Positions 5,986 through 18,546 of a stretch of 37,534 nucleotides of DNA are shown piece by piece. Numbering within the stretch: the stretch's first letter is position 1; each line of letters begins with the position of its first letter. The notes beneath the pieces were generated by a model, which had not been told where the DNA came from, did no database searches, and saw only the letters and a list, made by a program, of their open reading frames with translations. Position numbers and translations under genes: made by a program. Where the stretch lies: positions 1 through 37,534 of the IMG/VR virus record IMGVR_UViG_3300032213_001036. The stretch is one strand, 5' to 3'. Origin of the DNA: a virus.

Positions 5986-6806
5986 ATACATAGGGGCGTA
6001 CCCCCCCATGCCCCCGTGTGCCATGTGCCATGTGGCTGTGCGAGGTTGGATTATGGTTTCGGCATTATGAACAGTGCCATAATGTGCCTATTGTTGCAGG
6101 AATGTGCTAATCGTAGGCGCATGACGGGGGTGCATGAGCCGAGGCTCCAACCAATGCATAATCTTTTGGGGTCATATCGGGTTTTTGCCAACATGCGGAA
6201 TTGGCGTGTGATTTTCGTAAGCGCATTATGCATGCAAAACACCCGTGAAAATTCGGCGTAGAATTGGTGCTTGAAATTTGTTTTGGGCTGTGTCTAAAGT
6301 GTTTGGCATCGGAATCGGCAACGGTAACTAATGAGGGTAGCGTCTCATTGGTAGGGTCACCACAACCGAACGAAGTGCTGAGCAATACGAATCGGCACAC
6401 CACACAGCGACACCTCATGGCGAATGTCATGGGTTATGGATGGCTGTTGGAGTCGCAGGGCAACCTATTCTTCCACAATGAAATGTGGAACGGCGTAAAG
6501 CGACACGAACAATGTTTGCATTGTTCAACTTAGTTGATGCATGGACAATCTGTAGATTGTGTTTGGTGTTGACCCCATTAGATAGCCGAAGGCTTAGTTG
6601 GTTTCGGTAAAGTGACGGGGAACGGGACATGATTGGAATTACATGCAAAGACATGAAATGTCATCCTGAGCGACAATAACTACAGGATGTCACGGGAGGC
6701 TGGCAGGCAGTCAGCATGCTGGTAGTGATGGACGCATTATGCTAGAGTCATTACTGGTTGGAACGGGGTTCAATTCCTTGTCTTTCCGCTATGTTCAATA
6801 GAACAT
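5986..6806 (+). ncRNA. Candidate large structured non-coding RNA
   Basis: The gap from 5910 to 6844 has no credible gene: frames on both strands lack ribosome sites and have unlikely composition. It is instead full of complementary segments: 5993-5996/6001-6004, 6044-6050/6146-6152, 6063-6069/6078-6084, 6154-6162/6225-6233 enclosing 6187-6191/6201-6205, 6328-6335/6344-6351, 6471-6477/6484-6490, 6507-6514/6519-6526, 6545-6550/6555-6560, 6650-6654/6658-6662, 6662-6668/6683-6689 and 6724-6733/6747-6755. A tRNA-like T-arm lies at 6764-6780 and a hairpin at 6791-6806. Several stems contain G-T pairs that would be C-A on the other strand, so a plus-strand RNA is indicated. About 820 nt and a phage origin recall the ornate GOLLD or ROOL classes, but I cannot match a consensus. 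An origin of replication is an alternative. Confidence 0.55.
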
Positions 6807-6821
6807 AAAAGATACACACTA

Positions 6822-6840
6822 TTACAACTGGAGGTTGTAA
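6822..6840 (+). promoter_or_regulatory. Shine-Dalgarno hairpin before the gene at 6845
   Basis: TTACAAC (6822-6828) pairs with GTTGTAA (6834-6840), leaving a five-base loop TGGAG. The ribosome-binding GGAGG therefore starts in the loop and runs one base into the right arm. The ATG lies four bases after the stem. The same layout with different stems precedes 8624, 9564, 10330 and 13354. Confidence 0.7.
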
Positions 6841-6844
6841 CATT

Positions 6845-7165
6845 ATGAAACTAGAAGCAATGTCAGTGACTGTGACACCATTCAAGAATGGTGTTCGTAA
6901 GAATGTTGGCAATTGGTCGTTCGTGGATAACAATGACGACAACTTTAGTTATCGTCAAATTTTGCATCACGGAACTCTCTTGGGAGAGTTTTACACGAAC
7001 CGTGACAATGTGAATTGGGGCTTCGCCCCGTTGTCCACTGGTTGGGGTTCTGCATCGGACCAAATGGGTATGAATAAAATCCTGAAGGATTTCGGTTGGA
7101 CATTCCGTAGGAATGGTGGCGAGGCTCGTTTTGAGCATGTTTCGGGACGCAAGTTCCCTAACTGA
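6845..7165 (+). CDS. Hypothetical protein, first gene after the structured-RNA region
   Basis: The 106-residue product starts at ATG 6845 behind a strong GGAGGT displayed in a hairpin. It reads as a compact soluble protein with alternating hydrophobic and aromatic residues (VTPFKNGVRKNVGNWSF, WGFAPLSTGWGSASDQMG, FGWTFRRNGGEARFEHVSG). It has no membrane segment or cysteine. I do not recognise a family. Its position directly after the RNA region and before the MoxR-type ATPase suggests early expression. Its stop codon lies inside the first of a series of small hairpins. Confidence 0.7.
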   Translation: MKLEAMSVTVTPFKNGVRKNVGNWSFVDNNDDNFSYRQILHHGTLLGEFYTNRDNVNWGFAPLSTGWGSASDQMGMNKILKDFGWTFRRNGGEARFEHVSGRKFPN

Positions 7166-7282
7166 CTTTGGTCAGTCGGACGAAATAGCACACCGATTTG
7201 GTGTGGGCAGTGCAATTCTGCTATCGTCCACTATGGTGGACTCAGCCAATGGGGTTGAGTCATTAGATGTCCGTGAACGGAC
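7161..7282 (+). promoter_or_regulatory. Array of six small hairpins between two genes
   Basis: In 122 bases six complementary pairs follow one another: 7161-7166/7171-7176, 7189-7194/7200-7205, 7207-7210/7218-7221, 7226-7231/7236-7241, 7239-7244/7256-7261 and 7269-7273/7278-7282. The fourth and fifth share bases 7239-7241 and exclude each other. No credible gene explains the stretch; a 65-codon frame through it (7113-7310) mostly overlaps the upstream gene. Confidence 0.6.
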
Positions 7283-7294
7283 AGCCATTCAACA

Positions 7295-7317
7295 CATAAT
7301 GGGAGGATAACATTATG
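7295..7317 (+). promoter_or_regulatory. Hairpin enclosing Shine-Dalgarno and start codon of the MoxR-type gene
   Basis: CATAATG (7295-7301) pairs with CATTATG (7311-7317). The nine-base loop holds GGAGG (7302-7306), and the ATG at 7315 forms the end of the right arm. Folding would put the start codon in a stem while leaving the Shine-Dalgarno exposed, an arrangement suited to regulated initiation. Confidence 0.6.
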
Positions 7318-8595
7318 GCAACATCAGCAAACACAGTTGTATCTATTGATACAAACAACAGGAGAATCACTTTCCGTACCGATACAGGTCGGGAATATGG
7401 GACTCACATCAGCAACCTAAGCAAAAACGAACTTATCAAGGTTGGCTCGTTCCTTCAAGTCAAGTGGAACGGCACACCAATGCACAAGACAGTCGCTGAG
7501 ATTGCTGGCATCGTAGATGAGGCTTTGGCACAGTTCAAAAGTGTTCCACAACCTACGGTTGAGAAGCCAATCGTTCGTACTTCGGAACCTGTCCCTGCTA
7601 AAGCAGTTGTGCCAACTGGTTCATCGTTGGATGCTGTAATTGCAACTATGGTTGCAAACATTATGGAAACCATCCCTGTCGGGATTGACGAGGACAAGGT
7701 TCGTGACATCGCTAACGATGTTTTCGCTCCGATTGCGATGGACCATGCAGTGGCGTTGTCACGATTGACTCAAAAAATTGAGGCAATGCAACCGAAGGTT
7801 ACACAAATCGTCATCAAGGACCGTCCGACAGTTACCCTAAAGGGTGTTCAACATATGGCTTTTGCTGACATTATGATGTCAATATCTGCCCGTTGCAACA
7901 CTTTCCTTGTGGGTCCTGCTGGCACTGGCAAGACAACGATGGTGCAACAAGTTGCTGATGCTTTGGGTTTGCGTTTTCATGCTGAAAACTTGACAGCCGC
8001 AACTACCGAGTATTCCCTAAAGGGCTTTACTGATGCCAATAGCGGTTACAAGGCAACTCCACTTCGTGAATTGTTTGCGAATGGTGGCGTTTACTTGTTG
8101 GATGAGATTGACAATGCGAACCCCAATGTTTTGGGGGTTCTCAACAGTGCCTTGTCCAATGGCTTTATGGCTTTCCCTGATGGCATGGTGCAAAAGCATC
8201 CCGAGTTCATCGCTGTTGCGGCAGGTAATACTTACGGCAACGGTGCAACGGCAGAGTATGTAGGACGGAATCCGATTGACGGTGCAACTTTGGACCGTTT
8301 CGCTTTCTTCAATGTTGACATTGATGAAGCGGTAGAGGATGCGATGCTTGCAGGGTTCGGTTTGCCTACGGCAACTGCTACTGCTTGGGTCAATGCGGTT
8401 CGCAAATCCCGTCAGAATGTCGCTGATAGCGGTTTACGAGTCATCGTGTCACCACGAGCCACAGCGAACGGTGCAGGGTTACTTGCTCAGGGCATGGACA
8501 TGGACAAGGTGTACAGTGCCACAGTCCTGAAGGGTGCAAAGCATGACCAAGTTGAGAAAATCCGTCAAGGTGTAACCTTGACAGTAGCCGCTTAG
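7315..8595 (+). CDS. MoxR/CobS-type AAA+ ATPase
   Basis: This 426-residue ATPase has an N-terminal region of about 170 residues, a beta-rich start and then a helical linker. A AAA+ core follows: Walker A GPAGTGKT (200-207), Walker B VYLLDEID (259-266), sensor 1 Asn in AAGNT (about 305) and an arginine-finger-like GATLDRF (about 323-329). The pattern is that of MoxR/CobS/CbbQ ATPases, which remodel partner proteins, often with a VWA-domain partner encoded next door. The following gene is the likely partner. The start codon lies in a hairpin with a strong GGGAGG. A perfect 8-bp hairpin (8564-8571/8575-8582) sits at the end of the reading frame. The phage substrate is unknown. Confidence 0.9.
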   Translation: MATSANTVVSIDTNNRRITFRTDTGREYGTHISNLSKNELIKVGSFLQVKWNGTPMHKTVAEIAGIVDEALAQFKSVPQPTVEKPIVRTSEPVPAKAVVPTGSSLDAVIATMVANIMETIPVGIDEDKVRDIANDVFAPIAMDHAVALSRLTQKIEAMQPKVTQIVIKDRPTVTLKGVQHMAFADIMMSISARCNTFLVGPAGTGKTTMVQQVADALGLRFHAENLTAATTEYSLKGFTDANSGYKATPLRELFANGGVYLLDEIDNANPNVLGVLNSALSNGFMAFPDGMVQKHPEFIAVAAGNTYGNGATAEYVGRNPIDGATLDRFAFFNVDIDEAVEDAMLAGFGLPTATATAWVNAVRKSRQNVADSGLRVIVSPRATANGAGLLAQGMDMDKVYSATVLKGAKHDQVEKIRQGVTLTVAA

Positions 8596-8604
8596 TCCAT
8601 TACG

Positions 8605-8623
8605 ATTCAACTGGAGGTTGAAT
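8605..8623 (+). promoter_or_regulatory. Shine-Dalgarno hairpin before the gene at 8624
   Basis: ATTCAAC (8605-8611) pairs with GTTGAAT (8617-8623) around the loop TGGAG. The stem abuts the ATG at 8624. Compared with the hairpin at 6822-6840 the stem has changed on both sides and pairing is kept. Confidence 0.7.
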
Positions 8624-9466
8624 ATGTCAAATACAAAACTTATGCAACTTGACGGCAAAGCCGTTTATGTTGATTATTTCAACTCGTTTGGCGAGATGCT
8701 CAACTATGTTGAACGCAACCCAAAGTTTGCACAATCCGACAAGGATGGCACACAGGGTTGGGATGGGATGCGGAACTTTGCTGATGCATCACAATTAGCC
8801 CGTGATGGTTGGCATGATGTTCGTCCTGAGGTTGATAAGTTGCTCAACCAAATGTCGGATGTCATTGCTGAGCGTTTGGAAATTGCTCCTGCGATGACAT
8901 GGAATGTCGCTGGTGGTGTTGTGGATGTTGGTCGTTACTGTGGTAACGAACCGATGTGCATGATTGATTTCCCGATGGAACCACAAGAGCGAATGGGCAA
9001 GGTGGTCAAAATGTTTATTGACTACGGTGCATCGGCTTCGTTCAGTGGCGATTTCATTATGAAACGGGGCATTGTGTTGTTGGCTCTTGTGGATACTTTG
9101 CAGAAACTTGGTGTTTCTGTTGAGATTTACGGCGAAACAGCAATCTCTAGTGGCGGTACGATGCACACCACGGTAACGAAGTTACATGACCCAACAGACA
9201 AGTTGGACATTGACGAACTGATGTTCACTTTGGCTCATCCTGCGATGCTTCGCCGTATGGCGTTCGCTGTTCGGGAAATGTCATCCTGTGCCAAATCAAT
9301 CAGTGCTGTTCAGGGAGGTTCGTATGGTTCAACACGCCACACGATGTATGCCCCGACTGTCAATGCTGATGTTCGGATGGAACGCTTGGAACATGCGGCA
9401 ACACAGTGCATGGAGAATCCTGTGGAATGGGTTATGCAAACCATTACTGGTTTGAATCTAGTGTAG
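8624..9466 (+). CDS. Putative partner protein of the MoxR-type ATPase (VWA-like fold suspected)
   Basis: The 280-residue product starts at ATG 8624, directly after the GGAGGT hairpin. The middle part reads MTWNVAGGVVDVGRYCGNEP, then MIDFPMEPQERMGKV, then RGIVLLALVDTLQKLGVSVEIYG. The last phrase resembles the central strand and helix of VWA domains (a helix, then LxxxGxxVxV). A full MIDAS motif (DxSxS) is not seen, so metal binding is doubtful. The GGVVDVGRYxxGxPxCM phrase is, from memory, conserved in phage proteins paired with CobS-like ATPases. Adjacency to the AAA+ gene supports a two-component machine like CobS/CobT; the substrate is unknown. Confidence 0.7.
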   Translation: MSNTKLMQLDGKAVYVDYFNSFGEMLNYVERNPKFAQSDKDGTQGWDGMRNFADASQLARDGWHDVRPEVDKLLNQMSDVIAERLEIAPAMTWNVAGGVVDVGRYCGNEPMCMIDFPMEPQERMGKVVKMFIDYGASASFSGDFIMKRGIVLLALVDTLQKLGVSVEIYGETAISSGGTMHTTVTKLHDPTDKLDIDELMFTLAHPAMLRRMAFAVREMSSCAKSISAVQGGSYGSTRHTMYAPTVNADVRMERLEHAATQCMENPVEWVMQTITGLNLV

Positions 9467-9475
9467 ATGTCCATT

Positions 9476-9530
9476 GGTGTAACAGGGTGGTGATTTTATC
9501 CTCCGCTACCTTGTTACACCTTTGGTGTAA
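9476..9530 (+). promoter_or_regulatory. Long hairpin with CCTCC loop and overlapping second hairpin
   Basis: Bases 9476-9488 pair with 9508-9520 (13 pairs, one G-T) around a 19-base loop containing CCTCC (9500-9504), complementary to the GGAGG of the next gene. The right arm also pairs with 9524-9530 (TTACACC-TTT-GGTGTAA), so two structures exclude each other. A TTGTTA (9511-9516) and TATAAA (9533-9538), 16 bases apart, could form a weak promoter over the same bases. Confidence 0.55.
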
Positions 9531-9546
9531 AATATAAACAACAACA

Positions 9547-9561
9547 CAACCTTGGAGGTTG
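9547..9561 (+). promoter_or_regulatory. Shine-Dalgarno hairpin before the gene at 9564
   Basis: CAACC (9547-9551) pairs with GGTTG (9557-9561) around the loop TTGGA; GGAGG spans loop and right arm. The ATG follows after two bases. Confidence 0.6.
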
Positions 9562-9563
9562 AA

Positions 9564-10019
9564 ATGAAAAAGCAATTAGCACGGACATTGTTCATGTGGG
9601 TCTTGTATGGGGTCACATTGTGGGTTGGTTTTGGGTGGTTCGGTTTACCGAACGCTTTTATGCCAATGTTTATGACCTTTTTGGGTACTTCAGTACCTTT
9701 GGGGTTCGCTTTATGGGAGTCATTCATCTTTATGGGGATGAATGACCTAAGAAAAGATGCACGAGATGCAGAGTTGGAAACTTGGGCGAGAGATTTTTTC
9801 TCACCTTTGAAAGAGAATCAGTCATGGGATGTCAGTATTCCTGCACCGAATGGTTACCAGTTTGAAATTTGGTGGAATGGTGCGTTAGTGATGTGGCAAG
9901 CGGAACTGTGGGACATGACAGTTACACCAATTGCGATATGTGACCGTGATGTGTTTGTCACTAGGGACGAAGCGATTGATTGGTTTGTGAAGCAATCAAA
10001 GATACTTGACAAGTTCTAA
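9564..10019 (+). CDS. Membrane protein of unknown function
   Basis: From ATG 9564 the product has 151 residues; an earlier in-frame start would lie inside the Shine-Dalgarno. Residues about 7-25 (LFMWVLYGVTLWVGFGWFG) and 31-55 (AFMPMFMTFLGTSVPLGFALW) are membrane segments. The remaining 90 residues are soluble, acidic and Trp-rich (WNGALVMWQAELWDMTV, RDEAIDWFVKQSKI). The topology suggests two membrane passes with the C-terminal domain on one side. It is expressed with replication genes, so it may act on the host membrane early. The 3' end of the gene contains a good promoter sequence for the next gene. Confidence 0.75.
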   Translation: MKKQLARTLFMWVLYGVTLWVGFGWFGLPNAFMPMFMTFLGTSVPLGFALWESFIFMGMNDLRKDARDAELETWARDFFSPLKENQSWDVSIPAPNGYQFEIWWNGALVMWQAELWDMTVTPIAICDRDVFVTRDEAIDWFVKQSKILDKF

Positions 10020-10034
10020 GGTAATGTGTAAAAT
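10006..10034 (+). promoter_or_regulatory. Strong sigma-70-like promoter
   Basis: TTGACA (10006-10011), a perfect -35 box, is followed after exactly 17 bases by TAAAAT (10029-10034). It overlaps the end of the membrane-protein gene and would start transcription about 20-25 bases before the ATG at 10064. Confidence 0.65.
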
Positions 10035-10063
10035 AACTAGTGTAAACCGATTGGAGGTGAGTG

Positions 10064-10222
10064 ATGCTTACGAACTACAAAGAGTGGTCAACGGATGAAC
10101 TGTTGAAGCAGTTGCAAAGCAACCGTGTTGTTGTGTTCAACATGAACAACGACAGCACAGCGATTGTTGATATTCTAGAAACTAGAATAAAAGACATGAA
10201 GGAGGTCATGTACAACGACTAA
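10064..10222 (+). CDS. Small hypothetical protein
   Basis: ATG 10064 follows GGAGGTGAG and opens a 52-residue frame (MLTNYKEWSTDELLKQLQ... ending KDMKEVMYND). It is charged and mostly helical, without cysteines or membrane segments. The strong ribosome site and the strong promoter directly upstream support translation. No family is recognised. Confidence 0.6.
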   Translation: MLTNYKEWSTDELLKQLQSNRVVVFNMNNDSTAIVDILETRIKDMKEVMYND

Positions 10223-10250
10223 TAGATACAACACAACTGGTAAGGATGAA

Positions 10251-10289
10251 ATGTCCCCAATAGGGGACATACACGAATAGTTTTTCGTG
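10251..10289 (+). promoter_or_regulatory. Two consecutive hairpins between genes
   Basis: ATGTCCCC (10251-10258) pairs with GGGGACAT (10263-10270) around AATA. CACGAA (10272-10277) pairs with TTCGTG (10284-10289). No T run follows either, so they resemble regulatory or RNA-stabilising elements more than simple terminators. Confidence 0.55.
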
Positions 10290-10310
10290 CTGATGATTCC
10301 AGTCCGAATC

Positions 10311-10327
10311 TGTACCTTGGAGGTATG
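10311..10327 (+). promoter_or_regulatory. Shine-Dalgarno hairpin before the gene at 10330
   Basis: TACC (10313-10316) pairs with GGTA (10322-10325) around TTGGA, and two G-T pairs extend the stem to 10311/10327. The ATG follows after two bases. It is the weakest member of the series. Confidence 0.5.
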
Positions 10328-10329
10328 TT

Positions 10330-10935
10330 ATGAGTAAGCAAGTGGCAGGGGCATTTATGCCCAGTGGTATAGGCAAAGAGATTGAGCCTGTAATGGTTGG
10401 CGATTACAAACATATTCAGTCGCTAATTGGCGGTTGTTTTGATGTTGTCACAACTAGGGTTGGTGGTAACGAAATCGTTGGTTATGTCCATGATGAGGGT
10501 TTGCTGATTGGTTTGGAACAAAACTGGTTTGCCAGTGCATTGTTTGAACGCAACTTAGTGGGTCCTTGCGTTATCATTGGTGGTGAGTCACCTGACGGAT
10601 ATTGTGATGGTGACAGTTATGATTTGCCTGAAAATTTCTTTCATTTCCTTGCAACGAAGTTCACGGAACATGTTGCTGACACATACAACGAGGCTACGAC
10701 AGCAACGATTGTGTTGGAACTTGCCCAAAAGTTTGGTCTTGCAACCGAGGACGAACTCAATTTGCTTGTTAGCAAAATGAGTGACGAGATGAACACAGGT
10801 CAAAAGGGTGATGCCATGGAAATGCTGATTTCATTGACTAATCGGGTCAACGACCAGTTGGCTGATATGGCTAGCAAAGTAAAAGGCACGCAGTTGGTCA
10901 ATGAAGTTGAAGAATTTTTGAAAGGAAATTCATAA
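10330..10935 (+). CDS. DUF3846-like protein
   Basis: In this 201-residue protein, residues about 15-115 follow the DUF3846 pattern: a start on an acidic position (IEPVMVGDYKHIQSLIGGCFDVV), then a beta strand, then DEGLLIGLEQN, then the GPCVIIGGES phrase and a closing helix. The family is common in phages and plasmids of actinobacteria and firmicutes and has no settled function. The C-terminal 80 residues form helices (DELNLLVSKMSDEM, LTNRVNDQLADMASKV). The gene follows a hairpin-displayed Shine-Dalgarno and overlaps the next gene by TAATG, starting a run of overlapping small regulatory genes. Confidence 0.75.
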   Translation: MSKQVAGAFMPSGIGKEIEPVMVGDYKHIQSLIGGCFDVVTTRVGGNEIVGYVHDEGLLIGLEQNWFASALFERNLVGPCVIIGGESPDGYCDGDSYDLPENFFHFLATKFTEHVADTYNEATTATIVLELAQKFGLATEDELNLLVSKMSDEMNTGQKGDAMEMLISLTNRVNDQLADMASKVKGTQLVNEVEEFLKGNS

Positions 10936-11090
10936 TGTCAGATAGCCCAGTTGAGCAGTTGGTGGGTCGGGGCAAGTATGAGTGTCCGACCTGCGAGAAC
11001 ACTATTGAGGTGTTCGTTCGCCTCAGCGAACTTCCGTTATGTTGTAATCATGCAACAGGTAAAATTCAAATGCGAAAGGTAGGTAAATAG
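10935..11090 (+). CDS. Zinc-ribbon mini-protein
   Basis: This 51-residue frame starts at a TAATG overlap with the DUF3846-like gene. CPTC (17-20) and the later CCNH (36-39) form a likely zinc site. The end is basic (KIQMRKVGK). It lies in a run of small, closely packed genes. A nucleic-acid- or transcription-related role is plausible from the fold, but nothing more specific can be said. Confidence 0.65.
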   Translation: MSDSPVEQLVGRGKYECPTCENTIEVFVRLSELPLCCNHATGKIQMRKVGK

Positions 11091-11261
11091 ATGAGTTGCC
11101 CAATATGTAATGGTCCGATTCCTAATGCCATGCATGAAGGAAAGTATTGCGGCGCAATATCTCGTGTTGATAACAAAACCGAGATTTGCTCCGATTGTGG
11201 TGTTCGTGAAGCGATTCAGGATTTCAACCGTAACCGTAGGTCGGTGATTGTTGATGCGTAA
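11091..11261 (+). CDS. Zinc-ribbon mini-protein of actinophage type
   Basis: This 56-residue protein begins MSCPICNGPIP immediately after the previous stop. CPIC (3-6) and CSDC (33-36) make a zinc ribbon, with SRVDNKTEICSDCGVREAIQDF between and after them. The phrase SRxDNxTEICxxCGxREAxxDF is one I remember from many mycobacteriophage and other actinophage mini-proteins, which supports an actinobacterial host. Their function is not established. Confidence 0.75.
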   Translation: MSCPICNGPIPNAMHEGKYCGAISRVDNKTEICSDCGVREAIQDFNRNRRSVIVDA

Positions 11262-11493
11262 ATTCAAAGCACGACATTATCCTGCGACAGAACTGTTGCG
11301 AATGTTTCGCCCTGAAACCGAGGACACGATTATTGCACAAGCATTGGGGATTCATCCCCAAATTGTTAGGAAATGGAAATATAAAAACACACAAATAAAC
11401 CAGTGGTTTGCTGACAAGTATGCGATTCGTTTGGGTATGCATCCTTCGGCAGTATGGAATGATTGGTTTGAGATGGAGGCAGAACAAGTATGA
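11254..11493 (+). CDS. Helix-turn-helix DNA-binding protein
   Basis: The preferred start is ATG 11254, overlapping the previous stop by 8 bases and giving 79 residues; the two TTG codons before it are less likely. Residues about 25-45 (EDTIIAQALGIHPQIVRKW) form a helix-turn-helix. They are followed by INQWFADKYAIRLGMHPSAVW, a phrase common in actinobacterial phage regulators (AD..A..LG.HP..VW). It probably binds DNA as a small regulator. It overlaps the next gene by an ATGA. Confidence 0.7.
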   Translation: MRKFKARHYPATELLRMFRPETEDTIIAQALGIHPQIVRKWKYKNTQINQWFADKYAIRLGMHPSAVWNDWFEMEAEQV

Positions 11494-11660
11494 AAGCACA
11501 TGACCAAATTTTTGATGTTGAGCAGAACATGAAACAAGTTTTCGGAGATAACCTTGCATTGGGGTTGTGTCTGAAATTGATTTATGATTTGACAACTGAC
11601 GAGCAGTGGCAAAATTTAGTAGAAACAACGCTACAAGCAAGGCGGTTAGCAAGTGTGTGA
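11490..11660 (+). CDS. Small hypothetical helical protein
   Basis: The ATG at 11490 overlaps the previous stop (ATGA). The 56 residues are helical and acidic to neutral (FDVEQNMKQVFGDNLALGLCLKLIYDLTTDEQW) with a basic end. No motif is recognised. Overlap on both sides supports expression as part of the operon. Confidence 0.55.
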   Translation: MKAHDQIFDVEQNMKQVFGDNLALGLCLKLIYDLTTDEQWQNLVETTLQARRLASV

Positions 11661-12360
11661 TGACCATGGTTTGGATGATGTTACACCTATCGGTGTGAAC
11701 ATATCCTCCGATGCCATAAATGGTATGTGGATGGGTGACCGTATTGCATACATAAAAGGTTATGACCTGACAAATAGGCATGATGTTTTGGCATGGTTGG
11801 AAGCAGTAACACAAGTGCATGACCAGTTTGTTTCCGAGTTCATGGGTGATTCGTTTGATGAGTTGCAACTGTTGGAATTACCAACGAACCCGTTGCAACG
11901 ATGGATGATTATTCGTGACTCGGTAACAAAAATCATAAACCAATTTCAAAATGTTACCAGTGTTCTTCAAGTAATTGACCAGTTGGGTGTGTCCCTAGAT
12001 GAGTACATGACAGCGTTCAGCACAAATAAGTTCGGTGGTTATATTGACCGAGCAACCTTTGCGGAATTTGAATCCGACATGCTGAAGGAACGCCCAAATT
12101 ACATGAAATTAGTGCGTAAATACGGGCTAAATCGCAACATGGTGAAAAGTTTCCAAGAACTGTACGAACCAATAGTGGTTCGTACTTATGGTCGTGGAAA
12201 CAACATGGGGCTAGTTAGAAAAGAGTTCCATGAAATGATTATGGCGGGGACAATATCAAACAAAGAAATAGTCAGAATAATAAATGAGAAATACGGGACC
12301 AATTATGTTCCTGACACAGTTCGCTGGCACAAGCGACAAATGAAAAAGAAGGATGTATAA
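11653..12360 (+). CDS. Putative DNA-binding protein
   Basis: The product is 235 residues from GTG 11653, which overlaps the preceding gene by 8 bases. An in-frame ATG at 11725 would remove 24 residues. The C-terminal 45 residues (EMIMAGTISNKEIVRIINEKYG, then VRWHKRQMKKK) look like a helix-turn-helix of the resolvase/homeodomain-like type with a basic end. The N-terminal part is helical with acidic patches. It could be a transcription regulator or origin-binding factor; it lies just before the replication genes. Confidence 0.55.
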   Translation: MCDDHGLDDVTPIGVNISSDAINGMWMGDRIAYIKGYDLTNRHDVLAWLEAVTQVHDQFVSEFMGDSFDELQLLELPTNPLQRWMIIRDSVTKIINQFQNVTSVLQVIDQLGVSLDEYMTAFSTNKFGGYIDRATFAEFESDMLKERPNYMKLVRKYGLNRNMVKSFQELYEPIVVRTYGRGNNMGLVRKEFHEMIMAGTISNKEIVRIINEKYGTNYVPDTVRWHKRQMKKKDV

Positions 12361-12405
12361 CTATATGTGTTACTATTTGTCCATGCTAATTATTGGAGGT
12401 TATAA

Positions 12406-13242
12406 ATGAGAATAGATAGAGTCAATCAGAAAATCTTTATTAGACAATCATGGTTAGGTGACATGACTATCTGCCCTGAGCGTGCAAGGCTTGGTCAGAT
12501 TCGTCCTGAGTTTCGGACAGGTTCCGATGCGACAATCATCGGAACATCGTTACATGCTGGCATTGAGTCGGTGCTTGATGGCAGGTCATCCGAGTTCGGT
12601 GACATGCTGAAAGCGGTACAAACCGAATATGAAATGCTGGAGCAAACAAATTATAAAAAGACCAACATTGACCCAGACAAAATTCCTGCGTATCTGGAGT
12701 CTATGTCACTTGCGTTTTATGATGGCATCTTGCCACATGTTGAGCAAGGCGGAAAAGTAGAACACAAGTTCACATCCTCATTGGGTTTTACCATCAACGG
12801 CTACGCCGTTTATGTTGAAGGAACAATGGATTATGTGACACCTAGTGGTGTTATTTGGGACTGGAAAACAGCCAGCCGCCAATACAACATTAAAGAGAAA
12901 CAGAAATCCAACATTCAAGCCAGCGTTTATGCTGACGCTTGTGTGTCGTTGGGGCTATCACCTGAGTACCCAGTTGATTTCCGTTTCGGTGTTATGGTCC
13001 GTCAAGAGAAACCTAAATCACAAATCGTTTCCATCGTTCGTACCGAAGCGCATGGACAATGGTTGCGTCAATACATTCGTGGTGCAGTCAACACAGCGAT
13101 GAACAACGGTTACGAAAACAACTGGATTATGAACGATTCTTCAGCACTATGCTCGGAATCATGGTGCAGTTACTGGAGCATCTGCAAAGGTGCGTTTGTT
13201 CGTGCTGGAGATGACGCTTTCCCTGAGCAGTTGGATGTCTGA
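12406..13242 (+). CDS. RecB/Cas4-like PD-(D/E)XK exonuclease with probable Fe-S cluster
   Basis: This 278-residue nuclease has the expected motifs in order: GTSLHAGIE with His50, VEGTMDYV with Asp142, WDWKTAS with Asp152 and Lys154, and the QxxxY helix motif beginning at Gln171. Four cysteines (23, 249, 254, 260) are arranged as in AddB/Cas4 nucleases, one early and three near the C-terminus, so a 4Fe-4S cluster is likely. These enzymes resect DNA ends for recombination-dependent replication or repair. It starts at an ATG behind TTGGAGGTT. Its neighbours are the presumed single-strand binding protein, helicase and primase. Confidence 0.9.
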   Translation: MRIDRVNQKIFIRQSWLGDMTICPERARLGQIRPEFRTGSDATIIGTSLHAGIESVLDGRSSEFGDMLKAVQTEYEMLEQTNYKKTNIDPDKIPAYLESMSLAFYDGILPHVEQGGKVEHKFTSSLGFTINGYAVYVEGTMDYVTPSGVIWDWKTASRQYNIKEKQKSNIQASVYADACVSLGLSPEYPVDFRFGVMVRQEKPKSQIVSIVRTEAHGQWLRQYIRGAVNTAMNNGYENNWIMNDSSALCSESWCSYWSICKGAFVRAGDDAFPEQLDV

Positions 13243-13259
13243 CATGTCCATGCTATGCT
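13231..13259 (+). promoter_or_regulatory. Possible promoter before the replication genes
   Basis: TTGGAT (13231-13236) and TATGCT (13254-13259) are separated by exactly 17 bases. Both match the sigma-70 consensus only moderately. The element overlaps the end of the nuclease gene. Confidence 0.35.
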
Positions 13260-13273
13260 CTAGTTTAGTTCAC

Positions 13274-13315
13274 GAACGACACGGCTCGGTCACCTCCAGT
13301 CAAGTCGTGTCGTTC
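13274..13315 (+). promoter_or_regulatory. Long hairpin with CCTCC loop
   Basis: Bases 13274-13286 pair with 13303-13315 (13 pairs, one G-T) around a 16-base loop with CCTCC at 13293-13297. Stem length, loop size, loop CCTCC and distance to the next ribosome site match the hairpin at 9476-9520, although the stems are unrelated in sequence. Confidence 0.65.
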
Positions 13316-13336
13316 ACTAATGTAATACCAAACCAA

Positions 13337-13351
13337 CAAGCAGGAGGCTTG
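13337..13351 (+). promoter_or_regulatory. Shine-Dalgarno hairpin before the gene at 13354
   Basis: CAAGC (13337-13341) pairs with GCTTG (13347-13351) around the loop AGGAG. The ATG follows after two bases. The third stem pair from the loop is A-T as in other members, while the base pair next to the loop has changed on both sides. Confidence 0.65.
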
Positions 13352-13353
13352 AA

Positions 13354-13818
13354 ATGAATACCATCAGCAAAGACCAATCCATAATCACACAGGTGGCTGC
13401 AAAAATTGCTGCCGACCTGACACCTAAGACAGATGACATTATGACGAACATCGCTAATTGGGCGATGGCGTTTGATGCCACTACTGATGCCCTGTTGCAA
13501 AAGCATGGCATGACCTCAGGTGGTATGACCGAACAAGAAGTAGCACAGGCTGTTATTTCAACCTTCGGTGCAACACCAGTAGAAGCACCAGCACCACAGT
13601 GGGCTAAAGAAGCATCTGCACCAGCAGGTGGCTTTCAGGTCCGCATCAAAGGTCAGCAACACGGTCCAATTCCAGCATGGCTACATGCAGAATGTGCCAA
13701 GGTTGGCGTAAACGAAGTGTGGGACAACCGTGACGGTTTGCAAGCAAACCCTAAGCGTCCTTGGTTCAAAGCCGTAACAGGCGACAAGGCGTTTTGGGAA
13801 CCACGAGCAAAACGATAA
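13354..13818 (+). CDS. Conserved replication-associated protein, possible ssDNA-binding role
   Basis: The product has 154 residues. The N-terminal 70 are helical (VAAKIAADLTPKTDDIMTNIANWAM) with a Gly/Met-rich turn and TEQEVAQAVISTF. A Pro/Ala linker follows at about 72-90. The C-terminal 60 residues read HGPIPAWLHAECAKVGVNEVWDNRDG, then NPKRPWFKAVTGDKAFWEP. The final module is rich in Trp and basic residues and, from memory, recurs in actinophage proteins next to DnaB-like helicases. A single-strand DNA binding or helicase-loading role is suggested by neighbours only. It starts behind the AGGAG hairpin. Confidence 0.6.
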   Translation: MNTISKDQSIITQVAAKIAADLTPKTDDIMTNIANWAMAFDATTDALLQKHGMTSGGMTEQEVAQAVISTFGATPVEAPAPQWAKEASAPAGGFQVRIKGQQHGPIPAWLHAECAKVGVNEVWDNRDGLQANPKRPWFKAVTGDKAFWEPRAKR

Positions 13819-13824
13819 ACAAAC

Positions 13825-14907
13825 ATGACACCTGCTCCTGATTACACGGAGCGTTGGGCAAAGATTGGACGGGGCGAGAACATCGCCCCGTCCGATTTGT
13901 CTATAACGCCAAAATTCAATTACTTTACGCCACTTGAAAAAGCGGCTGATGATTATGTCCATTGGGCGCAAACCCCACACGAACGAGTTTACACAGGCTT
14001 CGCTGACATTGATTCAGAGATGCGAGGGATAGCACCAGCAGAACTATGCCTAGTGAACGGCTACTCACATAGCGGTAAAACACTGGCATTGCTACAGATA
14101 CTTGTAGCGAACAAAGACAAACGAGTTGTGTACTTCTGCCCCGATGAGCCACGCACACTAACGCTGATTAAGTTGGCGTGTGTAGTCCATGGTGTTGATG
14201 CGAACCAGTTGGAACAACAAATCGCCAACAATGACCGTCAAGCCATAAATCTGTTGAAAGACACAGCACGAGAACACTTTCCGAACCTAGCGGTATTTGA
14301 CCAAACAGTTTCACTGTTGGACATGGAACGCTCGTTGTCCGAAGTATCGGATGCGATTGGTGACCCACAACTTATTGTTGTTGACTATTTAGAACTGTTG
14401 ACAGGTGCTGGCGAGGATGTTCCATCCAAAGCCAACGCAATCAAAGCGTTCGGTAAACGCCACAACAAGCCTTTACTTGTGTTGCACCAGTCATCACGGT
14501 CATCAGGTGCTGATGGAAAGAAAATGACCATCAGTTCAGGTGCATATGGTGGCGAACAGCAAGCGACACACATCATTGGTGTACGCCGTAAACGGTTTGA
14601 AATTGAAGGTTACATTCGTGACCTGCAAGGCAAACTGGAGCGTTCCGCAAACACCGAAAAGATTATGGAAAAGATTGAATCACTACAGTACGAGTTGCGT
14701 ATCCACATGGATACCGTCACACTCAACTTGGTGAAGTGCAAGCGTCCTGCTTCGCAGTTGCTTGACGATATGGATTTTACAATTGAATACGGAACAGGTC
14801 GTTTGCATCGTCTTGACACAGGTGTGTTGCCATGGAAAGAAACACGCCCTAGCGTGGACAATCCACTAGAACAACTAACACTTGCAGAAACCTTGGAGGA
14901 CTGGTGA
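13825..14907 (+). CDS. DnaB/RecA-like replicative helicase
   Basis: This 360-residue protein has a RecA-type ATPase core: Walker A GYSHSGKT (79-86), the PDEPR phrase at about 106-110, Walker B LIVVDYLELL (183-192, close to the DnaB LIVIDYLQLM), and the segment NKPLLVLHQSSRS (214-226) that corresponds to DnaB motif H4. KCKRPAS near residue 305 resembles the DnaB arginine-finger region. It lacks the full DnaB N-terminal domain, so it is shorter than cellular DnaB (about 450-470). It should unwind DNA at the phage fork together with the primase, whose GTG overlaps its stop codon. Confidence 0.85.
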   Translation: MTPAPDYTERWAKIGRGENIAPSDLSITPKFNYFTPLEKAADDYVHWAQTPHERVYTGFADIDSEMRGIAPAELCLVNGYSHSGKTLALLQILVANKDKRVVYFCPDEPRTLTLIKLACVVHGVDANQLEQQIANNDRQAINLLKDTAREHFPNLAVFDQTVSLLDMERSLSEVSDAIGDPQLIVVDYLELLTGAGEDVPSKANAIKAFGKRHNKPLLVLHQSSRSSGADGKKMTISSGAYGGEQQATHIIGVRRKRFEIEGYIRDLQGKLERSANTEKIMEKIESLQYELRIHMDTVTLNLVKCKRPASQLLDDMDFTIEYGTGRLHRLDTGVLPWKETRPSVDNPLEQLTLAETLEDW

Positions 14908-15827
14908 TACCTGACTATCTGACACAGCCATACATAACTTTGTTTCGTGGCAGAGGTGATGTTTATGGACATAATGAGGGTCGCTGTGTAAAAGAGCAGT
15001 TGACAAACGATGTGTTCCAAAAACATTTCTCAGGTGAAGCACCAATCGGTATTTATCCGTTGGTCCCACACTTTGAACAGTTTTATGTTGCATGGGGTTG
15101 CGTTGACTTTGACACAGCAGACGCAGACCAAAACGCAGTGAAACTACATGACGCATTGCTAGAAGCAGGCATCGTGTCATGGATAGAGAAATCACGGTCC
15201 AAAGGATTCCATGTTTGGGTATTCGCTGAACAGGCTGTCCTTGCTGAGGATATGCGTAACATGCTGGTCGTTGCATCACATGTTGCTGAAACACCAACCA
15301 CAGAAGTAAACCCAAAACAAACCACATTGAAAGCAGGACAATATGGCAACTATGTTAGGTTACCGTATCCGAATTTGGATGACCGACAAACTGACAAGCA
15401 ACGCATCTTTCACAAGAAAGATGTTGAATCGGGTTCCTTTGACAATCCGATGGTCTTTAGTGACTTTATTGAATCGGCTATGTCGCTTCGTACCTCGCAA
15501 GAAACGATTAAGCGCATCGCATCCATGTATCAGCCACCCAAGCAAGCAACGGTTGTCGTAAATGATTATGTTTATGATGCAACTCTCAGTGAGGCTATGC
15601 AGATACTTAGCCCGTTGGGTAAGGTCATTTGGCGTGACGGACCGCTAGCAGGCAAAGACCGTTCATCTACACTGGCGAAACTAGGTCATGAAACTGTTCG
15701 CAGTGGACTGAACCCAAGCCAAACCAAAATCGTGTTGATGACAGCAGACAAACGGTGGGGCAAATATCATTTGCGCCACGATGGTGAACTAGAAATAGAC
15801 AAACTAGTTGTCAGAGTGCATTCGTGA
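14904..15827 (+). CDS. Archaeo-eukaryotic-type (prim-pol) primase
   Basis: This 307-residue protein shows the primase-polymerase signature: WGCVDFD with Asp68 and Asp70, KSRSKGFHVWVF with the Ser-x-x-His-like motif (His103), and GNYVRLPYPN (148-157) as the third motif. The C-terminal 100 residues, with RDGPLAGKDRSSTLAKLGHE, resemble the helical primase C-terminal module. It starts with GTG 14904 after TTGGAGGA and overlaps the helicase stop by four bases (GTGA). It would prime DNA synthesis, and some relatives can also extend DNA. No DNA polymerase gene is seen in the genome. Confidence 0.85.
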   Translation: MIPDYLTQPYITLFRGRGDVYGHNEGRCVKEQLTNDVFQKHFSGEAPIGIYPLVPHFEQFYVAWGCVDFDTADADQNAVKLHDALLEAGIVSWIEKSRSKGFHVWVFAEQAVLAEDMRNMLVVASHVAETPTTEVNPKQTTLKAGQYGNYVRLPYPNLDDRQTDKQRIFHKKDVESGSFDNPMVFSDFIESAMSLRTSQETIKRIASMYQPPKQATVVVNDYVYDATLSEAMQILSPLGKVIWRDGPLAGKDRSSTLAKLGHETVRSGLNPSQTKIVLMTADKRWGKYHLRHDGELEIDKLVVRVHS

Positions 15828-16357
15828 AAACACTTACTGAATATCCGTTGATGCACCTCACCGCTAAAGAGGTGGTTCAACTGCGCCAATTCACAGAAAA
15901 CTGCAAACAAAACAAAACTCAACACCAAGTTACTGACCAAAAATACACAACCGAAGCCACAGAAAAAGGCATCATTATGCTAGGCAAATCGGGAGAAGTA
16001 ATTGTCTCCCGATACTACAACGCACCTATAGATTGGGACATCTATATTGGCGCAGACAACGGTTTTGATACCACTATAAACAACAAAAAAACTGAAATCA
16101 AAACATCAAGCCAAAAAAATCTTATTATAAACGACCCTGAATATTGCAAATATGGGCTATGGAAATCCGACACCGAACAATGCATTATTGTGTGGTGCGA
16201 CCAGCCAAAAGACCAATGGGAAAACATCGGTACAAACACACAATTTCAAATAATTGGTGGAACAACACGAGAACATTTTTTTGCAAACTCCCACAAATCG
16301 GACTACGGCTATGGACCTAGACTGACCCTTGCCGCAGACAAACTAGTACATCTATAA
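15824..16357 (+). CDS. Putative restriction-endonuclease-like PD-(D/E)XK protein
   Basis: The product is 177 residues from GTG 15824 (GTGA overlap with the primase stop). The centre reads GKSGEVIVSRYYNAPIDWDI, then NGFDTTINNKKTEIKTSSQ. The first part carries the conserved Glu-containing helix of PD-(D/E)XK nucleases; FDTTI supplies the Asp and EIKTS the ExK. The remainder (GLWKSDTEQCIIVWCDQP) looks like the following strand. It may cut host DNA or act in recombination. The assignment rests on the motif order alone. Confidence 0.6.
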   Translation: MKTLTEYPLMHLTAKEVVQLRQFTENCKQNKTQHQVTDQKYTTEATEKGIIMLGKSGEVIVSRYYNAPIDWDIYIGADNGFDTTINNKKTEIKTSSQKNLIINDPEYCKYGLWKSDTEQCIIVWCDQPKDQWENIGTNTQFQIIGGTTREHFFANSHKSDYGYGPRLTLAADKLVHL

Positions 16358-16370
16358 AGGAACACACAAA

Positions 16371-16955
16371 ATGACAACAATACTTGCAATCCAAGGTGAG
16401 GACTACTGTGCAATCGGTTCCGACTCACAATGGACAGATGACTATGGGCGAGTAGGACGCATGAACCAACCCAAAGTAGTTACCGTAGGTAAATATCTGA
16501 TTGGCGTAGCAGGAGACACTCGTGGTGCGAATGTGGTTCAACATGCGTTCAACCCACCAGTACTCCCACCCAAACTCGTTGGCGCAAAACTTGTGAAGTT
16601 TATGGTGTCACACTTTGTCCCCGCCTATAAAGAATGTTTAGAAGCACATGGTGCAGGCAGACCACAATACGATGACCAGCCAGCGCAATCAGCAAACGAG
16701 ATACTCGTTTGCGCTAATGGCACAGTGTTTCAAATTGATGAGGATTATGGAACAGAAACAGACACATGCAACCTGTATGCAATAGGTTCAGGTGGACACT
16801 TCGGTTTAGGTGCATTGCAGGCTTACACAAACGGGAAGCGTGTCGTACAAGCAAATGCTAAACAGTTGTTGCTCAAATCGTTAACAGTTTCCGCAAAGTT
16901 TGATAGCGGTTCAGGCGCACCATTCCACACCTTCATACAGACAGCGAAACCATAA
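16371..16955 (+). CDS. Proteasome/HslV-like Ntn-hydrolase (peptidase T1 type)
   Basis: The product has 194 residues from an ATG behind AAGGAAC. It begins MTTILAIQGEDYCAIGSDSQ. Counting Thr2 as residue 1, as in HslV after Met removal, places the Asp of GSDSQ at 17 and the Lys of QPKVV at 34, close to the proteasome Asp17 and Lys33. YLIGVAGDT corresponds to the next strand, LYAIGSGG (136-142) gives the Ser129 equivalent, and FDSGSG (177-182) gives Asp166 and Ser169. All catalytic and structural residues of a threonine protease are therefore present, with no propeptide. It sits between DNA-metabolism genes and overlaps the RusA gene (TAATG). No HslU-type ATPase is in the genome. It may degrade host proteins, process phage proteins, or assemble with host factors. 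Confidence 0.85.
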   Translation: MTTILAIQGEDYCAIGSDSQWTDDYGRVGRMNQPKVVTVGKYLIGVAGDTRGANVVQHAFNPPVLPPKLVGAKLVKFMVSHFVPAYKECLEAHGAGRPQYDDQPAQSANEILVCANGTVFQIDEDYGTETDTCNLYAIGSGGHFGLGALQAYTNGKRVVQANAKQLLLKSLTVSAKFDSGSGAPFHTFIQTAKP

Positions 16956-17452
16956 TGGGAATAGAATACTCTAAGAAGCGTTATAAACAAGTACAAAAAA
17001 AGAAAGCCGCCATCATACCGAAGGCTGGACCAATCAAAGTAACGAAGGCTGACGGAACTGTAGAAATACAACCCGTTGACCCCAAGGCTGTACGCAAGAC
17101 CATTAAGAAAGGTCAGAACAAAGCACACAAACTTAAAGTTGACTCCAAGCCAATACCAAAAGGTCGTCCACGGATGACCCGTTATGGTCGTGTGTTCACT
17201 CCAGCAACCACATTGCAAGCAGAAGCAATCATAGCGCAAGCGTGGAACGGACCAAAGTATGAAGGTTTAGTAGAGGTTGATTGTGTTTTTACACCCGAAG
17301 GAACAACAGTAATCGTTACACCAGTAGAAGGAACGCAATCAAAATTGCGTGGCGACATAGATAACTATGTCAAACTATTGATGGACGGTCTTAATGGTGT
17401 CGCATGGCTGGATGACAAACAAGTAATTGTAGTCAGAGCAGAAAAGCGATGA
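16955..17452 (+). CDS. RusA-like Holliday junction resolvase
   Basis: The product has 165 residues. Residues about 58-165 form the RusA domain: PIPKGRPRMTR (67-76), then LRGDIDNYVKLLMDGLNGVAWLDDKQV (131-157). Asp134, Asp136, Lys140 and Asp154 correspond to the RusA catalytic Asp70, Asp72, Lys76 and Asp91. An N-terminal extension of about 55 basic residues is unusual for the family. The enzyme cuts four-way junctions arising from recombination before packaging. It overlaps both neighbours by four bases or fewer. Confidence 0.9.
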   Translation: MGIEYSKKRYKQVQKKKAAIIPKAGPIKVTKADGTVEIQPVDPKAVRKTIKKGQNKAHKLKVDSKPIPKGRPRMTRYGRVFTPATTLQAEAIIAQAWNGPKYEGLVEVDCVFTPEGTTVIVTPVEGTQSKLRGDIDNYVKLLMDGLNGVAWLDDKQVIVVRAEKR

Positions 17453-17928
17453 GCAAAAACCAGTCAGATTATGATATTCCAGCCCGCAAGTTTGACTTCC
17501 ATACCGACCTAAAGTTCGGTAAAAAAGGTGAAAAACTTGTAGAGGATTTCCTTGATGCCATGTCTGATGGTTCCTTTGAAGTTAAAACAGACCGATACCG
17601 CAACGGGCGTATGGTCCTAGAGATGACTCATAATCCACGCAAGAAACTGGATGATGAGGGTAAACCGTTATGGACCCCTTCGGGGCTTGCCATAACAAAA
17701 GCAAAATGGTGGGTATATGTTTATACCTTGGATGGCTCCTTTGTGATAGTTAGCACGGACAGAATCAAACGATACCTAAAAGCCAACAAGGAGAGATTTA
17801 ATCCCAAGAAATACCACTCTTTCGCATGGTCCTCTAGTAACCCGTCAAAAGGATATTTGCTGGAACCCGAAGATGTTATGGACATGATGATTAACACGGA
17901 ATACGATGAAGTACGAACCAACCAGTAA
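17449..17928 (+). CDS. Putative PD-(D/E)XK nuclease
   Basis: This 159-residue product starts at an ATGA overlap with rusA. GKKGEKLVEDFL (24-35) supplies the helix with Glu, and FEVKTDRYRNGRMVLEM (about 43-59) supplies the ExK and following strand. PSGLAITKAKWWVYVYTLDGSFVIV then gives the last core strands. The pattern is that of small phage resolvase- or VRR-like nucleases with the SG..T.A phrase. A role in DNA repair or degradation beside RusA is likely. Confidence 0.7.
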   Translation: MSKNQSDYDIPARKFDFHTDLKFGKKGEKLVEDFLDAMSDGSFEVKTDRYRNGRMVLEMTHNPRKKLDDEGKPLWTPSGLAITKAKWWVYVYTLDGSFVIVSTDRIKRYLKANKERFNPKKYHSFAWSSSNPSKGYLLEPEDVMDMMINTEYDEVRTNQ

Positions 17929-18229
17929 AACTGGTAAAACCGAAATAGAATTATTAATGCAACCGTTTTCGGTTACACATGATGAAACCGATTGGGAATT
18001 AATTGAACTCATACAAGACTCACTGTCCACGCTAAGCGAAGCAGACCAAGACGCATTACATGGCATATACTATTTGCGTCAAACATATCAGGACCTTGCG
18101 AGCGACCTTGGCATCAAAGCCAAGTCGCATGCGTGGAGGAAAGTTGATTCAGCCTTAAAGAACTTACAAAAAGCATTATTGGAAAACGAAAAGTTCGTTG
18201 AAAAAATGGGAGAAAAATATGACATCTAA
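17906..18229 (+). CDS. Sigma-factor region-4-like DNA-binding protein
   Basis: The 107-residue product starts at ATG 17906, inside the preceding gene. Residues about 43-91 (LSEADQDALHGIYYLRQTYQDLASDLGIKAKSHAWRKVDSALKNL) read as sigma-70 region 4: a short helix, then a helix-turn-helix with QDLASDLGI as first helix. There is no region 2, so it is not a full sigma factor. It could be an anti-sigma-like, late-gene or co-regulator. It overlaps the next gene. Confidence 0.65.
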   Translation: MKYEPTSKTGKTEIELLMQPFSVTHDETDWELIELIQDSLSTLSEADQDALHGIYYLRQTYQDLASDLGIKAKSHAWRKVDSALKNLQKALLENEKFVEKMGEKYDI

Positions 18230-18446: not shown

Positions 18447-18546
18447 GGAACTAGTACACGCTGGCGCACCAAAAACAGCAATCAGACGGGTTGAGGACAT
18501 TTCCGTATCTGTTGCATGGTTGGATAAACATGCCAAAAAATCATAA
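18385..18546 (+). CDS. Small hypothetical protein
   Basis: This 53-residue frame starts at ATG 18385 after AGGGAAA. The N-terminus is basic (MTKSKKLNLTTLNEQLTFL), followed by a helix and a basic end (DKHAKKS). The good ribosome site supports it, although it overlaps both the previous gene and the next. The function is unknown. Confidence 0.5.
   Translation: MTKSKKLNLTTLNEQLTFLHEELVHAGAPKTAIRRVEDISVSVAWLDKHAKKS

Follow-up and report, generated by a model that had tools for sequence, protein, structure and literature searches.

The window analysed here is the whole stretch of 37,534 nucleotides of the virus record IMGVR_UViG_3300032213_001036. The following genes and RNA elements, among them hairpins with a Shine-Dalgarno (SD) sequence in the loop, lie at the locus:

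6822 to 6840, + strand: SD hairpin of g6845, TTACAAC-TGGAG-GTTGTAA, 7 bp, ATG 6845 4 nt downstream
6845 to 7165, + strand: g6845, 106 aa, no Pfam or PHROG match
7315 to 8595, + strand: g7315, AAA+ (MoxR-like) ATPase (Pfam AAA_5, 7e-19)
8605 to 8623, + strand: SD hairpin of g8624, ATTCAAC-TGGAG-GTTGAAT, 7 bp, abutting ATG 8624 (0 nt)
8624 to 9466, + strand: g8624, DUF7192 protein (Pfam PF23822, 8e-38)
9476 to 9520, + strand: hairpin with a CCTCC (anti-SD-like) loop at 9500-9504, about 60 nt before ATG 9564
9547 to 9561, + strand: SD hairpin of g9564, CAACC-TTGGA-GGTTG, 5 bp, ATG 2 nt downstream
10244 to 10300, + strand: hammerhead-like fold (GAA, stem III, H17=A, stem I, CTGATGA, 3-bp stem II), fold z -3.8
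10313 to 10325, + strand: SD hairpin of g10330, TACC-TTGGA-GGTA, 4 bp, ATG 4 nt downstream
13274 to 13315, + strand: long hairpin with loop TCACCTCC, CCTCC at 13293-13297, about 60 nt before ATG 13354, fold z -4.6
13337 to 13351, + strand: SD hairpin of g13354, CAAGC-AGGAG-GCTTG, 5 bp, ATG 2 nt downstream
13354 to 13818, + strand: g13354, 154 aa, strongly conserved in the family (alignment), no Pfam or PHROG match

The AlphaFold model of g13354 was of low confidence (pTM 0.37) and gave no fold match. The window sequence carries five SD-loop hairpins exactly where the original prediction had placed them, before genes 6845, 8624, 9564, 10330 and 13354. RNAfold returned each of them as the minimum free energy structure of its own 49-nt context, frequently with an additional U-G or U-A pair, the loop then being GGA or UGG. 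Their folding energies were unexceptional (z from -1.9 to +1.1), and taken alone the one at 10313, with its 4 bp, is weak, 179 of 200 shuffles folding equally well. Single-site fold z-scores are uninformative, and the evidence for the hairpins is positional and comparative. The covariance model (CM) matched the sites of g6845, g8624 and g13354 at 25.4, 26.4 and 20.0 bits, respectively, all three sites belonging to its training set. The early genes g7315, g10064, g12406, g13825 and g14904 of the window have no SD hairpin; at g7315, many relatives have one. No curated Rfam family matched the SD hairpins at E <= 1, one weak match within 6000-18800 being unrelated, and the hairpins are described by no catalogued RNA family among those searched.

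The relatives, which are viral contigs with 30-100% protein identity, keep a hairpin with a GGA(G) loop at the same gene starts, and the stem letters change freely and compensatorily. The stems in g6845 orthologues are ATTGAC/GTCAAT, ATTCAAC/GTTGAAT, ATGAAC/GTTCAT and TAATAAAC/GTTTATTA. Those of g10330 are ATACAC/GTGTAT, CACC/GGTG, TAAACAC/GTGTTTA and AATAAC/GTTATT, and those of g13354 are CACC/GGTG, ACACC/GGTGT, CAACC/GGTTG and GCATC/GATGC. The g9564 orthologues keep CAACC/GGTTG, with the loops TTGGA, TAGGA, TCAGGA and TTAGGA. The orthologous site of g8624 has 26 distinct hairpins. The covariation score there was 0.460; shuffled sequences gave 0.188, and sliding the pairing by 1-3 columns gave no more than 0.265. 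Across 25 sites from several genes, the score was 0.708 versus 0.176. These scores were obtained by counting a named structure; RNAalifold predicted no structure on the hairpin alignment, perhaps since the alignment mixes pairing frames. The earlier observation of SD sequences in hairpin loops, with stems maintained by compensatory change, is thus confirmed, and much more strongly than one genome could show.

Hairpins of at least 5 bp were present at 29% of early gene starts compared with 3% after re-pairing of the arms, and at 2% of structural gene starts (2% re-paired), in agreement with the proposed restriction to early genes. In orthologous early leaders (g6845, g7315, g8624 and g10330), stems of at least 4 bp reached 49-67%, versus 12-19% when re-paired within the gene family. 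A stem of at least 5 bp at GGAG was found at 16.8% of early-strand gene starts and at 2.4-2.7% of sites outside gene starts. Hairpins were present in 150 of 324 early leaders and in 40 structural leaders, where dinucleotide shuffles gave 29.7 and 29.2, respectively. The pairing frames centred on GGA far exceeded re-pairing, for example, 57 versus 2.3. When 57 relatives were searched with the CM, 61 of 65 matches were on the early strand and 58 of these 61 were at an ATG. The hairpins are concentrated on early genes preceded by an intergenic gap. Their frequency on the early strand rose from 5% (overlap) to 40% (gap of 80-160 nt), while on the late strand it did not rise as the upstream gap grew.

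The hairpins differ from one another in the sequence and length (4-8 bp) of the stem and in the length and letters of the loop. The loops found were TGGAG, AGGAG, CGGAG, TAGGA, TTGGA and TGGGAG, and a distant relative presents TGAAA as CCC-TGAAA-GGG. Because stems and loops vary and the TGAAA variant exists, the only constant is the complementarity of the loop to the 16S tail (anti-SD). Stem length was anticorrelated with GC fraction (rho -0.60), which indicates a near-constant stability for stems of 5-8 bp. In otherwise perfect 5-bp stems, one G-U pair was enriched 4.6-fold and one A-C 2.1-fold, the latter within the null range; this difference favours RNA over DNA as the acting form. Hairpin presence was correlated within genomes (variance 0.097, versus a permuted mean of 0.054 and maximum of 0.084). 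Some sub-clades keep GGAG but have no hairpins altogether, which speaks against the original prediction in those sub-clades and indicates that the element is not obligatory; elsewhere in the relatives the pairing is kept compensatorily. The leaders examined in Gordonia phage Kudefre and mycobacteriophage Rose5 have no such hairpins. The AAA gene is common to both phages, and Rose5 also has a DUF7192-like gene.

The relatives also contain 45 distinct, newly recognised type-II hammerheads, which the earlier analysis had missed. They were recognised by the pattern GAA, A15.1-U16.1, H17 and CTGANGA, with stems I and III closed and stem II open; reversed sequence gave 0 matches. In 42 of the 45, a gene start adjoins downstream, usually one with an SD hairpin, and the hammerheads end roughly 20-40 nt before the start. 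Among 43 distinct segments downstream of them, 30 have a stem of at least 4 bp at GGA. One relative locus scored 26.1 bits with Rfam Hammerhead_II, under the 37-bit cut-off. These predicted hammerheads may cleave themselves. In the window, the fold at 10244-10300 has the core and stems I and III, and its stem II begins with a U-U mismatch in place of a standard pair. In the counterpart of this fold, U15.1-A16.1 occurs in some close relatives, and the Rfam hammerhead models did not match the window copy. This copy is degenerate, and ribozyme activity in the clade of the window is doubtful. In the available part of Perreault et al. 2011 (PMC3088659), type II hammerheads flank prophage genes and no SD hairpin is mentioned. 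The hammerheads of the relatives resemble these in that they have the type II core, with stems I and III closed, directly before early genes.

Hairpins with CCTCC loops upstream of g9564 and g13354 had likewise been overlooked. Among the g9564 leaders, CCTCC was kept in 6 of 6 from the close W-clade, and three more distant ones have CCCTC. Of the 63 distinct g13354 leaders, 29 have CCTCC upstream, mostly within or beside a hairpin; none of the 67 g8624 leaders or 63 g7315 leaders does.

On balance, we lean towards the view that each SD hairpin forms a self-contained ribosome-binding site, insulated by its own structure, in which GGA stays exposed beside structured leader RNA. The predicted unpaired probability of GGA was 0.84 with the hairpin and 0.40 when the hairpin was disallowed, a comparison in which holding the left arm unpaired frees the right arm too. 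The corresponding values were 0.58 in early genes without a hairpin and 0.40 in structural genes. We infer that the 16S tail would nucleate on the exposed loop and that the 30S subunit would then open the weak stem, with a possible effect on translation. The hairpin would prevent capture of the ribosome site by the surrounding structured intergenic RNA (hammerheads in relatives, long hairpins). Such insulation would matter for those early genes that begin after a gap, where translational coupling is unusable. The data point to a modular mode of translation initiation based on structure. Against this view, structural genes and some sub-clades manage without hairpins, hairpin presence is correlated within genomes, and the window's own ribozyme is degenerate. 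By standard thermodynamics, opening the stem costs several kcal/mol, and therefore the hairpin could also lower translation.

In the operators of CsrA/RsmA, MS2 coat and T4 gp43, letters of the loop or stem are conserved and the protein that binds them is known. As here, GGA or the ribosome site lies in or next to a hairpin; unlike in these operators, the letters vary in our hairpins and no binding protein is known. The CsrA/RsmA loop motif ANGGA is absent from most hairpins, whose main loops are TGGAG, TAGGA, TGGGAG and AGGAG. The start-associated sequences (SAS) of cluster K mycobacteriophages, named as the nearest analogue in the original prediction, are indeed close in position and in having AGGAG with complementary flanks (PMC3203893). 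In SAS, AGGAG is flanked by the complementary triplets GGG...CCC, as GGG-ATAGGAG-CCC (PMC3203893, PMC12699233). Both elements occur directly upstream of non-structural gene starts, oriented with the gene and in many copies per genome, and the function of SAS is unproven, as is that of the hairpins. However, SAS is one fixed 13-bp sequence, whereas in the hairpins the letters change freely and the pairing alone persists. The window sites differ from the SAS consensus GGGATAGGAGCCC, for which the TM4 sites carrying it were used for comparison. Extended SAS has 17-bp imperfect inverted repeats upstream; on general inspection of the leaders here, none was conspicuous. Because SAS is fixed in sequence, and non-palindromic according to its authors, its pairing is not testable by covariation. 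In RiboJ (PMC6206723), as in the leaders of the relatives only, a hammerhead is followed by a hairpin and then the gene; the ribosome site of RiboJ is downstream of the hairpin, whereas here GGA is inside the loop. T4 RegB sites (PMC3014915) are also GGAG SD sequences of early mRNAs, but they have an A-rich 3' context consensus, structure usually protects them, and no covarying stem is described.

It is possible, though rather unlikely, that the hairpins are operators for a trans-acting regulator or nuclease reading the loop GGA (like CsrA, or T4 RegB on early mRNAs) and shutting early genes off together. Their restriction to early genes would fit, and a host or phage factor could explain the correlation of hairpin presence across the genes of a genome, but this may be ancestry. 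An unpaired GGA with a constrained fourth G is the geometry cut by T4 RegB without S1 (PMC3014915), and GGA in hairpin loops overlapping SD sequences is CsrA-like, but the A-rich RegB consensus downstream of GGAG is absent, the hairpins differ widely in their stems and in the letters and length of their loops, and one relative has TGAAA loops. Neither a regB family nor a RegB or CsrA homologue came up when the early proteins of the window and a selection of its others, few of them structural, were scanned against Pfam and PHROG. No early gene family tracked the hairpins in 48 genomes, allowing for 70 tests; the best positive p was 0.0016, and that family also occurs in a hairpin-less genome. 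Nothing, therefore, points to the special phage or host factor that had been proposed to recognise the folded site, and the earlier interpretation is only partly supported.

We doubt that the hairpins instead shield or mark the ends of mRNAs processed by a hammerhead or nuclease and slow decay, with the SD in the loop only for lack of space. The position of the relatives' type-II hammerheads shortly before gene starts is in keeping with this, and the hairpin that RiboJ leaves at the 5' end is believed to make the mRNA more stable (PMC6206723). However, there are also genomes and genes, the window included, that have hairpins but no recognisable ribozyme, stem I of the ribozyme would already give a 5' hairpin after cleavage, and stability does not need a loop centred strictly on GGA. 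It is a quite improbable idea that the early region is under RNA-only control, in which hammerheads would cut the transcript into units, SD hairpins would present the ribosome site, and the CCTCC loops of g9564 and g13354 could kiss the SD loop, holding it off until a ribozyme, ribosome or ligand changes the fold.

It is very unlikely that the dyads are DNA operators of a phage repressor that overlap ribosome sites by chance. They are perfect inverted repeats with few G-U pairs before early genes only, but the half-sites differ between genes and relatives while complementarity stays, leaving no consensus for a DNA-binding protein. The explanation was rejected on these free half-sites, the position fixed relative to ATG and GGA, the greater enrichment of G-U than A-C, and the early-strand-only orientation. 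Least probable of all, and rejected, is chance or mutational bias, in which A/C-rich leaders (as these are) beside GGAGGTT make palindromes without selection and template switching, which could keep stems perfect, perfects quasi-palindromes: the signal vanishes when real arms are re-paired, stems at the core AACTGGAGGTT-N4-ATG are no longer than chance predicts in unrelated viral contigs, 57 of 72 ending at 3 bp, while they reach 6-8 bp in 4 of 4 contigs with several family genes, and late genes have no hairpins.

The carriers form a family of uncultured viruses, with freshwater actinobacteria as the most likely hosts. A terminase search of genome contigs for a host found nothing, and the four loci matched in a DUF7192 search, which lie in Trebonia, an Actinomycetota bin and Spirosoma, are distant and not decisive for the host. 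If the stems matter, the presented ribosome site would be one whose shape, not its sequence, is conserved and which recurs before many genes per genome, and it would be a test case for the reading of an SD sequence in a loop. It would also offer a testable reading for the unexplained SAS elements of cluster K, and the arrangement in the relatives would be the equivalent in nature of the engineered insulator that joins a ribozyme to a hairpin.

The five small hairpins named in the original prediction, each presenting a GGA(G) Shine-Dalgarno (SD) sequence in its loop just before the ATG of the genes at 6845, 8624, 9564, 10330 and 13354, are present in the window, as confirmed by reading its sequence and by scanning every GGA in it. 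The window spans an entire virus record (37,534 bases), to which no host genome is linked. The + strand carries the early and replication genes between 6845 and about 18.8 kb, and the - strand encodes the terminase, portal and capsid along with most of the remaining structural genes. About 260 related loci were obtained from IMG/VR scans with the AAA+ protein (gene at 7315), the terminase, the protein of the gene at 13354 and the DUF7192 protein (gene at 8624) as queries, and upstream regions of orthologues were gathered for both early and structural gene families.

A stem of at least five Watson-Crick pairs around GGA was present at 29% of 411 distinct early starts, compared with 3% after re-pairing, in which 5' and 3' arms were swapped between sites; for structural gene starts, the values were 2% and 2%. 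The dominant pairing frames were those centred on GGA or GG. GGAG sites away from starts had a stem in 2.4-2.7%. When the core AACTGGAGGTT-N4-ATG was located in 72 viral contigs without family hits, the stem went no further than the three given pairs in 57. It reached 6-8 pairs in each of the four contigs that have several family genes.

At the orthologous site of the gene at 8624 (35 distinct sequences, many without this hairpin), the covariation score was 0.460 versus 0.188 ± 0.030 in shuffled and at most 0.265 in slid controls, the excess over shuffles being inflated by relatedness because cells count sequences, not events. The slid control answers this objection in part, as does the fact that different genes within a genome have independent stems. 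Both sides had changed in 7/7 pairs at this site. For 25 sites of several genes, chosen for having the hairpin, the score was 0.708 versus 0.176. One G-U in a 5-bp stem was enriched 4.6-fold over re-pairing and one A-C 2.1-fold, the latter inside the null range; this order fits what would be expected of an RNA strand. A covariance model built from these hairpin sites matched 65 places in 57 relatives. Of these, 61 lay on the early strand, and 58 of the 61 coincided with the ATG of an open reading frame; the training set did not include 32 of the distinct sites found. The model had no match in the actinophages TM4 and Kudefre or in the uncultured podovirus MW202803.

The main loops were TGGAG, TAGGA, TGGGAG, AGGAG, TTGGA and CGGAG. 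GC fraction fell as the stem lengthened (rho -0.60), and mean energies of 5-8 bp stems lay between -3.4 and -4.2 kcal/mol. On the early strand, hairpins were rare at overlapping genes (5%) and common where the upstream gap was 80-160 nt (40%); the late strand, which has few such gaps, showed no rise with gap. Exposure of GGA was computed by ensemble folding of 145-nt contexts: the predicted probability of GGA being unpaired was 0.84 at hairpin sites and dropped to 0.40 when the left arm was barred from pairing. It was 0.58 for early genes without the hairpin and 0.40 for structural genes. In MW202803, CCC-TGAAA-GGG precedes the start of two early genes; its loop is a different stretch of the 16S complement. 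A repeated motif, (A/T)TCCCTACTA, stands directly 5' of the hairpins in L071 and L091, at orthologues of the genes at 7315, 8624 and 10330. In sub-clades without the loop-SD hairpin (L221, L239, L244, L245 and similar loci), the 7315 orthologue is often preceded by a hairpin, e.g., GCCGAAAGGC, adjoining the 5' side of AGGAGG.

Other RNA elements were seen in the early leaders. CCTCC occurred upstream of the gene at 13354 in 29 of 63 distinct leaders, mostly inside or next to a hairpin that is kept in many relatives. The leader of the gene at 9564 has a similar element, and other early leaders hardly ever contain CCTCC. These hairpins, which look like the 16S 3' end (TCACCTCC), lie about 60 nt before the two SD-hairpin genes:

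13274-13315, CCTCC-loop hairpin before the gene at 13354
9476-9520, CCTCC-loop hairpin before the gene at 9564

Positions 6721-6787 and 7178-7229 have tRNA-like folds with no anticodon arm, a T-arm GGTTCAATTCC or GCAGTGCAATTCTGC and an acceptor-like stem; the first of them weakly resembles mascRNA in Rfam (20.1 bits). Rfam tRNAs were found at L015:7684-7756 and L028:2509-2581. The long stretch at about 6000-6840, ahead of the early genes, has several small hairpins and no convincing gene, and is possibly a structured noncoding RNA.

A search of the relatives for type II hammerhead ribozymes, requiring both closed stems, the core letters and stem II, predicted 45 distinct matches versus 0 in reversed sequence; 44 were on the early strand and 42 within 90 nt before a gene start. 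Several genomes have 3-4 per early region. The loci include L217, L165, L240, L250, L253, L255, L199, L161, L164 and others. Downstream segments had a stem of at least 4 bp at GGA in 30 of 43 distinct cases. Rfam Hammerhead_II found one locus at 26.1 bits, below its 37-bit threshold, and the gathering threshold passed over type II hammerheads in the loci scanned. In the window, a hammerhead-like fold whose core contains a U-U mismatch precedes the gene at 10330. Perreault et al. (PMC3088659) described type II hammerheads on the flanks of prophage genes and proposed that they process long phage transcripts.

By terminase, the nearest annotated relative is MW202803, from Manatee Spring (49% identity). 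The host is likely an actinobacterium, because the AAA and DUF7192 proteins have relatives in mycobacterium and gordonia phages; a proteasome-like protein in the window, matching below the family cut-off, lends weak support. The 461-aa product of 320-1705 (- strand) contains long threonine-rich stretches, may have a membrane anchor at its C terminus and is perhaps a surface protein.

No Rfam family matches the SD hairpins, and searches of an open-access library turned up no account of phage SD-loop hairpins with covarying stems. The nearest known element is the Start-Associated Sequence (SAS) of cluster K mycobacteriophages, which is similar in position and has AGGAG flanked by GGG and CCC, but its sequence is fixed. 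For the linked ESAS repeats, the authors of the SAS work saw little evidence of RNA pairing (PMC3203893). Fixed, stemless, SAS-like contexts are repeated before starts in other actinophages, L392 (Rose5) and L266 (Kudefre) (CACACCAGGAGGACACCATG; GGGAGCTAACCACAATG). We class the SD hairpins as a new form of structured ribosome site, outside every family tested.

The structure, its covariation and its specificity for gene and gap are shown by the sequences, and we lean towards the hairpin being a ribosome site that is presented and insulated. The main rival, a regulator recognising the hairpins, appears unlikely. Genes of one genome tend to agree in having or lacking a hairpin, but close relatives have this in common by descent, and no gene family tracks hairpin presence. 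As a presented site, the loop would let the 16S tail nucleate on it, and the 30S subunit would then open the stem.
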